Positions 6,067-32,980 of a stretch of 60,394 nucleotides of DNA are shown here, piece by piece. The stretch is from contig VGWC01000005.1 of the NCBI GenBank assembly GCA_016873775.1, forward strand, positions 1 to 60,394. Direction: 5' to 3'. The translations under genes were made by a program, and so were the position numbers. Under the pieces are notes generated by a model, which had not been told where the DNA came from, did not search any database, and saw nothing but the letters and a program-made list of their open reading frames with translations. Source of the stretch: Ignavibacteria bacterium. GTDB taxonomy: Bacteria > Bacteroidota > Ignavibacteria > UBA10030 > F1-140-MAGs086. Position 1 is the stretch's first letter. Every line of letters begins with the position of its first letter.

Positions 6067-7725
6067 ATGGATAACGATTTATACACAATTCAAGCAGTTC
6101 GCGAATTTGTGCAGAAAGCAAAAGATGCACAATTGCAATTTCGTGAATATTCTCAGGAAAAAGTGGACCGAATTGTCAAAGCGATGGTAGATGCAGGTTT
6201 TGATGCCGCAGAATATTTGGGAAAATTAGCGCACGAAGAAACCGGTTTTGGTAAAGTAGAAGACAAAAAAAAGAAGAACGAATTTGCAACACGACACGTG
6301 TGGGATTCTATCAAAGATTTGAAAACAGTTGGAGTTATTCGCCAAGACAAACAAAATAACGTTATAGAAATTGCCGAACCAATGGGAGTTGTATGCGCGC
6401 TTATTCCTTCGACAAATCCTACGTCAACGGTAATGTTCAAATCCATTATTTCCGTGAAAGGAAGAAACGCAATTGTTGCAAGTCCGCATCCGCGCGCAAT
6501 AAACTGCACGTGGAATGCAATGAAAATAATCCGCGAAGCCGCTGAGTCTGCTGGTGCGCCGCAAAATCTACTCTCGTGTTTAACAGCGCCAACAATGGAT
6601 GCGACCAATGAATTGATGAAGCACAAACTTGTTTCCATCATCCTTGCAACGGGAAGTAATTCGATGGTACGTGCGGCGTATAGTTCGGGAAAACCTGCGT
6701 ACGGTGTTGGTTCCGGAAACGTTCCGGCATTTATTGAACGTAGCGCAAATATAAAAAAAGCAGTGGCGGATATTATCAGTGGAAAACTTTTTGATTACGG
6801 CGTACTTTGTTCAACGGAAAGCGGATTGATTTGTGATAGACACGTAAAGAGCGAAGTAATAGAAGAAATGAATAAACACGGTGCATATTTTTGTTCTCGT
6901 GAAGATAAAGAAAAACTTGCGCGAACGATGTTTGATACACGTGGCTCAATCAATGCGAATATGGTGGGAAAATCTGCTGCATTCATTGCGCAAAATGCAG
7001 GAATAAAAATTCCCGAAACAACTTCTGTGCTCGTTGCGGAAGTTGAATCAGTTGGAAAACAAGAACCGCTTTCACGCGAAAAACTTTCTCCCGTGCTTTC
7101 ATTTATGACCGCTGACGATTGGCGCGAAGGTTGCCATCGTTGCATTGAAATGCTTGAGTTTGGCGGAATTGGGCATACAATGGTGATTCATTCGTCGAAT
7201 GAAGATATTATTATGAAATTTGCGATGGAAAAACCTGCATTTCGAATTCTCGTCAATACACAATCTGCGCTTGGCGCTGTTGGTTTTACAACAGGATTAA
7301 AACCTTCGATGACGTTAGGGCCCGGAACAATTGGCGGTTCAATTATTTCGGATAATGTTTCTGCGATTCATATGATAAATGTGAAACGACTTGCATACGA
7401 AACAAATCCTATCAATCCAATAGAGAATAATTCTTCGCCAAAAATCGAAATCAAAGAAGTTTCAATTTCAACTCCTATAAAAGAAATTCCATTGAAAGAA
7501 ACTGTTCGACACGTTGAACAACTTCCACAAACAACATCAAGCGGTTCGTGGCTCGATATTATTGATGAGCGTATTCGTTTGAAAGCAGGCAATGTTCCTG
7601 TACTATTAAAACAAGAAGTACATCCTTCGCAACAAACGCAACAATTTTCTCCTTCCGACAAAAAACTCGGAATGGGAATTTCCATTGAGGAAGTCAATAC
7701 AATAATTCAGAAATTTTCAACGTAA
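6067..7725 (+). CDS. CoA-acylating aldehyde dehydrogenase with long C-terminal tail
   Basis: Aldehyde dehydrogenase of the EutE/PduP/AdhE-N type, converting acetaldehyde or a related aldehyde plus CoA and NAD to acyl-CoA. 552 aa. Catalytic Cys is C248 in DYGVLCSTES. EPMGVVCALIPSTNPTST (104-121), ATGSNSM (194-200), GVGSGNVP (213-220) and GPGTIGGS are family motifs. The catalytic fold ends near residue 447. A tail of about 100 residues follows: a low-complexity linker, a short SGSWLDIIDERIRL helix, another linker, and a terminal amphipathic helix (KKLGMGISIEEVNTIIQKF). Linker plus terminal amphipathic helix is the layout of bacterial-microcompartment encapsulation peptides, and two shell-vertex genes lie at 32.4 kb. 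The exact substrate is not fixed by sequence. It stands alone. Confidence 0.88.
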   Translation: MDNDLYTIQAVREFVQKAKDAQLQFREYSQEKVDRIVKAMVDAGFDAAEYLGKLAHEETGFGKVEDKKKKNEFATRHVWDSIKDLKTVGVIRQDKQNNVIEIAEPMGVVCALIPSTNPTSTVMFKSIISVKGRNAIVASPHPRAINCTWNAMKIIREAAESAGAPQNLLSCLTAPTMDATNELMKHKLVSIILATGSNSMVRAAYSSGKPAYGVGSGNVPAFIERSANIKKAVADIISGKLFDYGVLCSTESGLICDRHVKSEVIEEMNKHGAYFCSREDKEKLARTMFDTRGSINANMVGKSAAFIAQNAGIKIPETTSVLVAEVESVGKQEPLSREKLSPVLSFMTADDWREGCHRCIEMLEFGGIGHTMVIHSSNEDIIMKFAMEKPAFRILVNTQSALGAVGFTTGLKPSMTLGPGTIGGSIISDNVSAIHMINVKRLAYETNPINPIENNSSPKIEIKEVSISTPIKEIPLKETVRHVEQLPQTTSSGSWLDIIDERIRLKAGNVPVLLKQEVHPSQQTQQFSPSDKKLGMGISIEEVNTIIQKFST

Positions 7726-30292: not shown

Positions 30293-31495
30293 ATGATGAA
30301 AATACTTCTCACAATTCTCGATGGTGTCGGAATCGGCGAACTTCCCGATGCAAAAAATTACGGTGATGAAGGAAGTAATACGCTTGCCAACTGCGCTAAT
30401 GTTGTCGAAAATCTTTCTCTCCCGAATTTGAAAAAATTAGGAATCGGAAATATTGTTTCCTTAAAAAATGTTTCTGCGGAAAAAAATCCTCTCGGCAATT
30501 TTGGAAAGTTAGCAGAAGTTTCAGGGGGAAAGGATTCGACGACGGGACATTGGGAAATCGCGGGAGTAATTTCTGAAAAAGATTTTCCGTACTACACGAA
30601 AACAGGATTCCCGAAATTGTTGCTCGATTCTTTTTTGAAAGAAACGCAATGCAAAGGTTATCTCGGAAACAAAGCCGCTTCAGGCACAGAAATCATCGAA
30701 GAACTTGGCGAAGAGCATCAACGTTCGGGATTTCCGATTGTGTACACTTCTGCTGATTCCGTCTTTCAAATCGCTGCGCACGAAGAAACAATTCCACTCG
30801 AACGACTCTACGAAATTTGTAAACTCACGCGCGAAAGAATTTGCGTCGGTGAACACGCAGTCGGAAGAATCATTGCGAGACCATTTACCGGGACAAAAGG
30901 AAATTACACACGCACTGCTAACCGCAGAGATTTCTCGCTTCTTCCGCCTAAAAAAACCTTATTGAATTGTTTGCAGGAAAATTCGATTCGCACAATTGGT
31001 ATCGGAAAAATCGGCGACTTGTTTTCCGAACAAGGACTTGATGAAGTGCTTCATACAAAATCGAATTTGCAAGGAATAGAAAAAACAATTTCCGAAAGCC
31101 AAAAAATGCAAAACGGATTTATTCGCCGCGGCGAATTTATTTTTTCCAATCTCGTTGATTTCGACCAACTCTACGGACATCGCCGCAATCCTCAAGGTTT
31201 TGCAAAAAGTTTAGAAGAATTCGATGCGCAACTTCCGAATATTCTCGAAACACTGAGCAATAACGATTGGTTTTTCCTTACCGGAGACCATGGTAATGAC
31301 CCAACGTATCAACACACTGACCACACGCGCGAATATGTTCCGCTCCTATGTTTTTCAAAAAATGGGAAGCGCGGAATCAATATCGGAACGAGAAAATCGT
31401 TTGCCGATGTGGGTAAAACGGTTGGACGATTATTCGGATTGAACGGTACTTCGCTTGCGATTGATGGAACAAGTTTTCATGAGATGATTTTATAA
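30293..31495 (+). CDS. deoB: Phosphopentomutase
   Basis: 400 aa. DeoB interconverts ribose or deoxyribose 1- and 5-phosphate in nucleoside breakdown. N-terminal MKILLTILDGVGIGELPDA with metal Asp10, EVSGGKDSTTGHWEIAG (metal and phospho-Thr site), YTSADSVFQIAAHE, RIIARPFTG and the C-terminal metal site LTGDHGNDPTYQHTDHTRE are all classic. Followed by an AbrB-like gene 1 bp after its stop, then a PIN-like gene and two microcompartment vertex genes. That context suggests a deoxyribonucleoside pathway with a shell. Confidence 0.96.
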   Translation: MMKILLTILDGVGIGELPDAKNYGDEGSNTLANCANVVENLSLPNLKKLGIGNIVSLKNVSAEKNPLGNFGKLAEVSGGKDSTTGHWEIAGVISEKDFPYYTKTGFPKLLLDSFLKETQCKGYLGNKAASGTEIIEELGEEHQRSGFPIVYTSADSVFQIAAHEETIPLERLYEICKLTRERICVGEHAVGRIIARPFTGTKGNYTRTANRRDFSLLPPKKTLLNCLQENSIRTIGIGKIGDLFSEQGLDEVLHTKSNLQGIEKTISESQKMQNGFIRRGEFIFSNLVDFDQLYGHRRNPQGFAKSLEEFDAQLPNILETLSNNDWFFLTGDHGNDPTYQHTDHTREYVPLLCFSKNGKRGINIGTRKSFADVGKTVGRLFGLNGTSLAIDGTSFHEMIL

Positions 31496-31496
31496 A

Positions 31497-31796
31497 ATGT
31501 CTGAACACCAAACCGCAATCGAGTTTGACACAACAATTGATGAACACGGCGCAATTCATCTTCCAGAAATTTTACAAAGCGCATTGCATACGGGAGCGAA
31601 AGTATCCGTTCGTGTTCTCAGCAATGTCATTTCTAAAGAATTGAAATCCAAGCGTGTTTTGGAAAGTGAAATCGAAACGATAATGTCGTTGCAACTGGAA
31701 AACCGTGAGCAAGTCGTAAAATTTTTATTGACGGAAGGTTCGTTTGTTGGCAATAAATCGTTATTGAAACACGCGAAGGCGTTACTTGAAAATTGA
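31497..31796 (+). CDS. AbrB-like antitoxin candidate
   Basis: 99 aa. N-terminal swapped-hairpin-like region (IEFDTTIDEHGAIHLPEILQSAL) resembles AbrB/SpoVT or similar antitoxin DNA-binding heads, followed by a helical tail. One base separates its ATG from the deoB stop, so it is in the deoB message. The PIN-like gene follows after 76 bp; together they look like a VapBC-type pair. Confidence 0.6.
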   Translation: MSEHQTAIEFDTTIDEHGAIHLPEILQSALHTGAKVSVRVLSNVISKELKSKRVLESEIETIMSLQLENREQVVKFLLTEGSFVGNKSLLKHAKALLEN

Positions 31797-31800
31797 TTGA

Positions 31801-31872
31801 TGATTAGCAAAAAAGTAATTAGTCATTATTTACACGATGTACGAATGACGAATTCCCAATGACAAATTGCCG
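31801..31872. repeat. AATTAGTCATTA/GAATGACGAATT word repeat before the PIN gene
   Basis: A run of imperfect AATTAC/GAATGACGAA/CAATGACAAATT words fills the whole gap between the AbrB-like and PIN-like genes. No promoter or ribosome-binding site is recognisable. Confidence 0.5.
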
Positions 31873-32304
31873 ATGATAAAAGTTGCAATTCATACCGATG
31901 TGTTCCTCGAACATCTTTTTCATACTGAAGAGAAGCCATCAACACTTCGGCTTGCGATGAAAAAATTTTTCTGTTATACAACGGTGTTCAATGCAATCGA
32001 ATTGTTTTCTATTGCGGAAACTCCGAAAGAAATTCAGAAAATTGAAGATGTAATGTCTGCAATGAAACTTCTCGGGCTCAATGCAAAAAATTCAAAACTA
32101 TATGGAATGTTACTCGCAGAAAATGGAACAATGCAGCGATTCAATTTGCTCATTGCCGGTTTATGTTTGGAAAGTAAATTGTCAATCATAACTTCGCGAC
32201 CGAAAGAATTTCGCGGCGTTGAACATCTGCATATTATTCCCGCTTCATTGCTTAGAAAATATGAAACGGCGGAAGAGATTTTGAGAGCAAGTAGAAGAAG
32301 ATGA
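31873..32304 (+). CDS. PIN-domain-like protein (VapC-type)
   Basis: 143 aa from ATG 31873 (an earlier TTG at 31867 adds two residues). PIN fold features: Asp9 in VAIHTDVFLEHLF, Glu43 in FNAIELFSI, and the terminal pattern LLIAGLCLESKLSIITSRPKEF, where toxins have a metal Asp before the LIA motif. Here that place is Asn91 and the final ITxD acid is absent, so nuclease activity is doubtful. It lies between deoB and the vertex genes on the same strand. Confidence 0.62.
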   Translation: MIKVAIHTDVFLEHLFHTEEKPSTLRLAMKKFFCYTTVFNAIELFSIAETPKEIQKIEDVMSAMKLLGLNAKNSKLYGMLLAENGTMQRFNLLIAGLCLESKLSIITSRPKEFRGVEHLHIIPASLLRKYETAEEILRASRRR

Positions 32305-32362: not shown

Positions 32363-32632
32363 ATGTTTTTAGGAAAAGTCGTCGGCACAGTTTGGGCAAC
32401 ACGCAAAGATGAAGAACTTGTCGGAATGAAATTTCAAATTGTCAAGCATGTTGGATTGGATTACCAATTGAAAGACTCGTTTGTAGTTGCAGTTGACACC
32501 GTGCAAGCGGGAGTTGGCGATGTTGTGCTTGTGTGCAGCGGAAGTTCTGCGAGACTCACGACACTTACCAAGAACAAACCCGTTGATGCCGTGATTATGG
32601 CGGTTGTAGATAAAATAGATGTGAAAGACTAA
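32363..32632 (+). CDS. eutN: EutN/CcmL-family microcompartment vertex protein, copy 1
   Basis: 89 aa, the full length for this family of pentamers that close the corners of carboxysomes and metabolosomes. GKVVGTVWATRKDEELVGMKF (4-24), VVAVDTVQAGVGDVVLV (41-57), the loop GSSAR (60-64) and the final strand PVDAVIMAVVDKID are the family pattern. A second, more diverged copy follows at 32711. No hexameric (PF00936) shell gene is visible in this window, so the rest of the shell would be encoded elsewhere, or the pair is a satellite locus. Confidence 0.93.
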   Translation: MFLGKVVGTVWATRKDEELVGMKFQIVKHVGLDYQLKDSFVVAVDTVQAGVGDVVLVCSGSSARLTTLTKNKPVDAVIMAVVDKIDVKD

Positions 32633-32710: not shown

Positions 32711-32980
32711 ATGTTTTTCGGCAAAGTCATCGGAACAATTTGGGCTACACGCAAAGACGAAAGTTTAGTTGGGAAAAAACTTTTGTTTGTGCAGCCGCTT
32801 AATTCCAAGTTGGAAAAAAACGGCGATGCGATAATTGCAGTTGATACGATTGGAGTTGGAGTTGCCGAACATATTTTTTACATCACCTCACGCGAAGCAA
32901 CTGTTCCTCTCACCAATTCCCAAACTCCCATTGATGCCGCCATTGTTGGAAAACTAGATAGAGTTGATTTAGAAAAATAA
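32711..32980 (+). CDS. eutN: EutN/CcmL-family microcompartment vertex protein, copy 2
   Basis: 89 aa. Starts MFFGKVIGTIWATRKDESLVGKK, nearly the same as copy 1, then diverges: IIAVDTIGVGVAEHIFYIT, and the GSxAR loop of copy 1 is replaced by SREAT. The last strand PIDAAIVGKLDRVD is kept. Two or three different vertex paralogs per locus are normal in metabolosomes, where they occupy distinct corners. It follows copy 1 after a 78-bp hairpin-filled gap. Confidence 0.9.
   Translation: MFFGKVIGTIWATRKDESLVGKKLLFVQPLNSKLEKNGDAIIAVDTIGVGVAEHIFYITSREATVPLTNSQTPIDAAIVGKLDRVDLEK

Follow-up and report, generated by a model that had tools for sequence, protein, structure and literature searches.

A conserved two-motif tail of an acetylating aldehyde dehydrogenase and a predicted metabolosome with scattered genes in Ignavibacteria

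Architecture of the dehydrogenase and its C-terminal tail

The window, i.e., the whole stretch of 60,394 nucleotides from an Ignavibacteria bacterium that was analyzed here, encodes an acetylating aldehyde dehydrogenase (AldDH) of 552 amino acids (6067..7725, plus strand), along with a phosphopentomutase and a pair of BMC-P shell vertex proteins on the same strand. AldDH matches TIGR02518, the acetylating-AldDH model, with 628 bits (cut-off 620), the match extending to residue 466, and the PDB entry 5j78 with E=6e-149. The alignments with the PDB relatives (5j78 and 3k9d, about 50% identity) are confined to residues 2-446, and by this extent the catalytic fold is assigned to residues 1-446 (6067..7404), for which pLDDT is mostly above 90. 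Pfam and fold searches of AldDH recover the catalytic fold only. The first-pass annotation, which placed the start of a C-terminal tail near residue 447, is borne out by the point at which these alignments stop; positions 7402-7725 correspond to residues 446-552 and the stop codon.

In an alignment of this AldDH with 69 orthologues (70 sequences), with conservation expressed as mean information in bits per column, the last 106 residues display a common architecture that consists of a linker, motif A, a second linker and the C-terminal motif B. Linker 1 (residues 447-493, 7405..7545) varies in both length and sequence, with 0.60 bits/column for residues 453-491 and pLDDT below 50 for residues 463-493. 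It is followed by motif A (residues 494-512, 7546..7602, SWLDIIDERIRLKAGNVPV), with 2.50 bits/column (492-512) and a helix at 495-506 (pLDDT ~60), the proposed docking element; by linker 2 (residues 513-536, 7603..7674), with 0.67 bits/column (513-531) and pLDDT below 50 (508-530); and by motif B (residues 537-552, 7675..7722, GISIEEVNTIIQKFST), an encapsulation-peptide-like helix with 1.87 bits/column (532-552), helical at 540-551 and with a block mean pLDDT of 86. By this measure, motif A is better conserved than motif B and almost level with the AldDH fold (2.99 bits/column in the 70 orthologues). Its conserved pattern is W/F-x3-I-x2-R-x4-A-G, with I499, R502, A507 and G508 near-invariant, and the near-invariant residue of motif B is F550. 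Because the information in both motifs is far above that in the linkers across the 70 orthologues, the motifs are more than a chance pattern, and the tail is confirmed as a real arrangement of two conserved motifs joined by a linker. Accordingly, what had been described as a linker of about 80 residues does contain linker sequence but is divided by motif A into two linkers, and the C-terminal sequence given previously matches the end region but lacks the final ST, the true end being KKLGMGISIEEVNTIIQKFST.

Motif B resembles an encapsulation peptide in that its helix, within a conserved motif of 16-20 residues, agrees with the 15-20 residue terminal helix of such peptides, and both preceding linkers are low in information and disordered in the AlphaFold model, in which both motifs are helical. 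The hydrophobic face of an amphipathic helix that the first-pass annotation perceived is weak in the single protein and emerges in the family average. A caveat on AMPHIPATHICITY is that, in the window sequence alone, motif B has an unremarkable hydrophobic moment (shuffle p=0.13), one that is matched or exceeded by 26% of the C-terminal stretches of 43 neighboring genes, but the family-averaged profile is amphipathic (p=0.02-0.03; p=0.02 for residues 540-551), and residues 540-551 fall, in the family average, in about the top 1% of all 12-residue stretches of AldDH.

Motif A is of a different kind. The segment SGSWLDIIDERIRL (residues 492-505), proposed earlier as a second such helix, is conserved and predicted to be helical but is not amphipathic (p ~0.6 both in the single sequence and in the family profile), and motif A shows no profile similarity to motif B or to the N-terminal extension of RpiB discussed below; on these grounds, a second ordinary encapsulation peptide was rejected. 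In each of 15 genomes scanned, motif A has one strong match, always on AldDH (15/15), and no match above chance on other proteins. No tails of similar sequence were found elsewhere in the genome of the window, and a comparison of the tail with PDB and NCBIfam yields nothing convincing, motif A resembling nothing known there. Motif A is probably a docking element.

Shell genes and their association with the dehydrogenase

The two BMC-P genes of the window (32363..32632 and 32711..32980) match PF03319 with E=3e-28 and E=1e-25, respectively. Besides these EutN-type genes, on which the first-pass annotation had based its proposed comparison, the genome of the window (157 contigs, 98% complete) encodes BMC-H and BMC-T proteins, so that its shell set comprises three BMC-P (two on contig C5, one on C83), two BMC-H (C31) and one BMC-T (C79). 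Scatter of the shell genes is seen not only in this assembly of 157 contigs but also in one-contig genomes (e.g., G294 and G302).

The first BMC-H protein is PduA/EutM-like and contains the stretches AMVKAA and AATDAGAAAA, which closely resemble AMVKSA and AATDAGAAAA of PduA, the groove stretches that have been reported to accept encapsulation peptides (PMC11157265). At its C-terminus, the second BMC-H protein (L009:1919-2419, contig C31; also L281, L282, L283 and L284) is extended by a conserved stretch (VHELRKYTRTLEGLSISGRVISISHREELVKEIL in this genome), for which a weak SAM-like Pfam match was obtained with this copy only; the extension is a candidate receptor for motif A. The BMC-T protein is PduT-like and adjoins a PduS-like flavin/Fe-S protein in this genome and in six others. 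The PduS-like protein contains Complex1_51K, SLBB, Fer4 and RnfC_N domains, and the conserved pair (L010:9039-10840; L275-L280) may be involved in electron transfer across the shell.

Across 395 genomes of the phylum, where AldDH orthologues were defined by E below 1e-140, 72 genomes encode AldDH, 74 encode BMC-P and 79 encode BMC-H/T domains. AldDH and BMC-P occur together in 72 genomes, AldDH alone in none, BMC-P alone in two and neither in 321 (nominal Fisher p=1.8e-77, calculated with ancestry ignored). The BMC-H/T domain PF00936 is present in 71 of the 72 genomes with AldDH, the exception (G338) being 81% complete. Because six families (f2, f4, f7, f14, f25 and f40) each hold genomes of both kinds, with and without AldDH and shell, the two have been jointly present or absent more than once; the number of evolutionary events behind the co-occurrence is small. 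The two genomes with BMC-P genes and no AldDH orthologue (G243 and G132; L092 and L093) may possess a different compartment.

Because no orthologue occurs without a shell, the comparison of tails by shell status is limited to paralogues. Five relatives from shell-less genomes, and likewise an additional copy encoded by G172, stop 21-31 residues past the fold and have no such tail; one distant relative is an AdhE-type fusion to alcohol dehydrogenase. A scan for the tail motif in 84,980 GTDB species genomes produced 204 stretches, of which 96 were confirmed and 80 kept. All 80 kept loci could be read as C-termini of AldDH; in 78 of them, the frame also encodes AldDH, and in the other two, it covers just the tail. 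Almost all come from Ignavibacteria and their relatives.

These observations also bear on the reading of the tail as a structural or oligomerization element of the dehydrogenase that has nothing to do with encapsulation. The near-equality of motif A and the fold in conservation fits such a role, and the confidence of the motif B helix block in a model of AldDH alone makes docking on its own enzyme possible; yet the relatives of known structure, which are about 50% identical, are complete proteins that have no tail, the linkers are disordered and variable in length, and every orthologue comes from a genome with shell genes, so that this explanation appears highly improbable. The encapsulation-peptide-like reading of the first-pass annotation is thus supported: the orthologue with its tail is absent from the 321 genomes lacking BMC-P, and the tail is not a structured domain of the known catalytic unit. 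Very likely, the tail serves to pack AldDH into a protein shell.

Extended DeoC and RpiB and a candidate pathway

In the DeoC aldolase of this genome (L205, contig C9 of G000; 288 residues), the match to TIGR00126, the DeoC equivalog model, does not start until residue 68. The 67 residues before it open with MTTIDSLVHSALQR; in the AlphaFold prediction, a helix (residues 2-16) is followed by a stretch that is mostly of low confidence, up to about residue 66, and then by the barrel. Among the 150 matches listed, the extension is aligned in 61 genomes with AldDH and in 0/80 genomes without it; the other nine AldDH-containing genomes listed include eight with divergent DeoC extensions of at least 61 amino acids and one, G005, with none. 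In the shell-less genomes that were read, the N-terminal part of DeoC is mostly 6-20 residues long, and in three genomes with a partial shell set (G132, G236 and G385), it is about 38-45 residues long. On a DeoC tree of 59 sequences, the shell label and the extension label each change about three times, and with so few changes, the extension makes a strong pattern but counts only modestly as independent evidence. Strong PF01791 matches (E ~1e-60) were rejected as DeoC given that they lack the DeoC active-site motif searched for; the weaker matches are the real DeoC proteins. After its N-terminal helix and ahead of the barrel, the extension (L205:685-885) contains a Cys-rich stretch, CCKDGVCxxxLCVVHNKEGV, which is conserved in the taxonomic order of this genome, other families having a different version. 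The profile of motif B resembles that of the DeoC N-terminal helix (P=1e-4, probability 57%).

RpiB shows an analogous extension. Extended copies are present in all 20 shell-bearing genomes scanned, with frames of at least 212 amino acids versus 144-190 for the other copies; in the long RpiB of this genome (L327, contig C25), the RpiB models match from residue 71. Among the extensions of 11 proteins, TIGR02536 (ethanolamine-utilization protein) is matched by 11, EutQ by 10 (best E 1.3e-6) and PduM by three, so that, as judged by these profile matches, the RpiB extension is related to microcompartment proteins.

In the Eut system, EutQ binds the shell through its N-terminal H1/H2 part and cargo peptides through H3/H4 (PMC12487888), which raises the alternative that the AldDH tail only organizes cargo, with motifs A and B binding enzymes or an adaptor such as the EutQ-like segment of RpiB and the shell being reached indirectly, as through EutQ for Eut cargo. 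The cargo peptides of EutC and EutE do bind EutQ (PMC12487888), encapsulation peptides bundle with each other (PMC12339742), and the EutQ-like segment is at hand in RpiB. However, this segment aligns mainly with the shell-binding part of EutQ (EutQ 2-68), not with the cargo-binding H3/H4, and the small-residue stretches that have been reported for the PduA groove are retained in the BMC-H protein; such an arrangement is conceivable but rather unlikely.

The phosphopentomutase gene deoB (30293..31495, PRK05362, 507 bits) carries no extension and would encode a cytosolic feeder that makes deoxyribose-5-phosphate. Both in the window and in G078 (L285), it is a neighbor of the BMC-P pair, and in G078, DeoC is encoded within about 6 kb as well. 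Two small ORFs of the window without a Pfam match (31497-32304) separate deoB from the BMC-P genes and are possibly an inserted toxin-antitoxin-like pair; in G078, this interval is empty.

Taken together, the extensions on AldDH, DeoC and RpiB suggest that the shell breaks down the sugar part of DNA. Phosphopentomutase would provide deoxyribose-5-phosphate; DeoC would release acetaldehyde from it, which the shell would confine until its conversion by AldDH to acetyl-CoA; and RpiB with its shell-type extension would let ribose-5-phosphate join the pathway. The PduS/PduT-type pair, in genomes that have one, may handle the electrons. The tail of AldDH would act as a flexible packing arm with two elements, motif B associating as an encapsulation peptide with other cargo peptides (e.g., the helix at the DeoC N-terminus), with the shell groove or with both, and the inner helix, motif A, docking on a specific, so far only predicted, partner. 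It is quite likely that AldDH is the core cargo of such a scattered metabolosome that resembles the sugar phosphate utilization (SPU) compartments, with a two-element packing tail and a flow from DeoC through acetaldehyde and AldDH to acetyl-CoA. Observations that go against this scheme include the weak amphipathicity of motif B in the single sequence; G005, with shell genes and AldDH and with a DeoC that has no extension; and the AldDH of G014 (L023), which keeps motif B and lacks motif A. The three BMC-P genes of G014 are adjacent to one another.

The exception of G005 is also compatible with a compartment that holds AldDH and receives its aldehyde from elsewhere, i.e., from ethanolamine, ethanol or another aldolase, the extensions of DeoC and RpiB then serving some other use, and TIGR02518, matched by AldDH, is a model of Eut-type acetaldehyde dehydrogenases. 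Against this source stand the joint extension of DeoC and RpiB, the SPU pair, in shell-bearing genomes and the kinship of the RpiB extension with microcompartment proteins, and it is considered improbable. With respect to the preferred scheme, in which DeoC is the source of acetaldehyde, PduL was tried as the CoA-recycling partner and rejected: because it was not found in 14 of the 15 shell-bearing genomes scanned, PduL does not explain CoA recycling. The sole PduL among 28 genomes belongs to a second shell-gene cluster in G188 (C1:123636-127385, L204), probably a separate compartment type. Pta is present and has no obvious extension.

Comparison with known compartments

The encapsulation peptides of PduP, PduD, EutC, EutE and CcmN (PMC12339742, PMC11157265) differ from the case described here, where the peptide-like helix is located at the C-terminus of AldDH and is preceded by a second motif that is better conserved than this helix and non-amphipathic. 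The presence of two elements on an AldDH has a precedent: the GRM3 AldDH of Rhodopseudomonas palustris has been described with a two-helix N-terminal encapsulation region, both helices being called amphipathic (PMC5311937). In both proteins, 20-25 unordered residues lie between two predicted helices, and a linker leads to an acylating AldDH, but the tail analyzed here is C-terminal, and its motif A is strongly conserved and not amphipathic. For directing enzymes into shells, motif A would offer a new handle.

SPU compartments are defined by pfam01791 and pfam02502 together with AldDH (PMC8217296). As in SPU (PMC4207490, PMC8217296), a DeoC-type aldolase (pfam01791), RpiB (pfam02502), AldDH and a shell are all present here, with N-terminal extensions on DeoC and on one RpiB. 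Unlike in SPU, the genes do not form one locus, with DeoC on contig C9, the long RpiB on C25, AldDH on C5 at a distance of about 25 kb from the two BMC-P genes there and the other shell genes on C31, C79 and C83, and PduL is missing from nearly all genomes scanned. By its enzyme set, the compartment is likely to be SPU-like. In the HO compartments of Haliangium, the pfam01791 enzyme is encoded elsewhere in the genome and in some cases bears an EP-like N-terminal extension (PMC8217296); the likeness lies in this extended enzyme, the lineage being different.

By the scatter of the shell genes over several separate places, the three BMC-P genes and the Ignavibacteria lineage, the compartment fits the FRAG type. 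FRAG compartments have been described as metabolosomes with AldDH and no obvious signature enzyme, with no function assigned (Sutter 2021, PMC8217296), and no later functional assignment was found in the literature searched. The bolder proposal that motif A is a new cargo-docking element with its own receptor, the tail a natural two-sticker arm and the FRAG compartments of the Ignavibacteria lineage dispersed deoxyribose/ribose-phosphate organelles is tentative, and doubtful as a whole. More generally, these extensions show that, where the genes of a compartment are scattered, its cargo can be recognized by extensions instead of gene neighborhood. Like FRAG (PMC8217296), the system described here combines dispersed shell genes, three BMC-P proteins, occurrence in Ignavibacteria and their relatives, and an AldDH encoded apart from most of the shell genes; unlike FRAG as described (PMC8217296), it includes DeoC and RpiB with extensions as proposed enzymes, so that the extensions on AldDH, DeoC and RpiB supply a specific candidate pathway for this type, whose members include, e.g., Melioribacter roseus and Stygiobacter electus.
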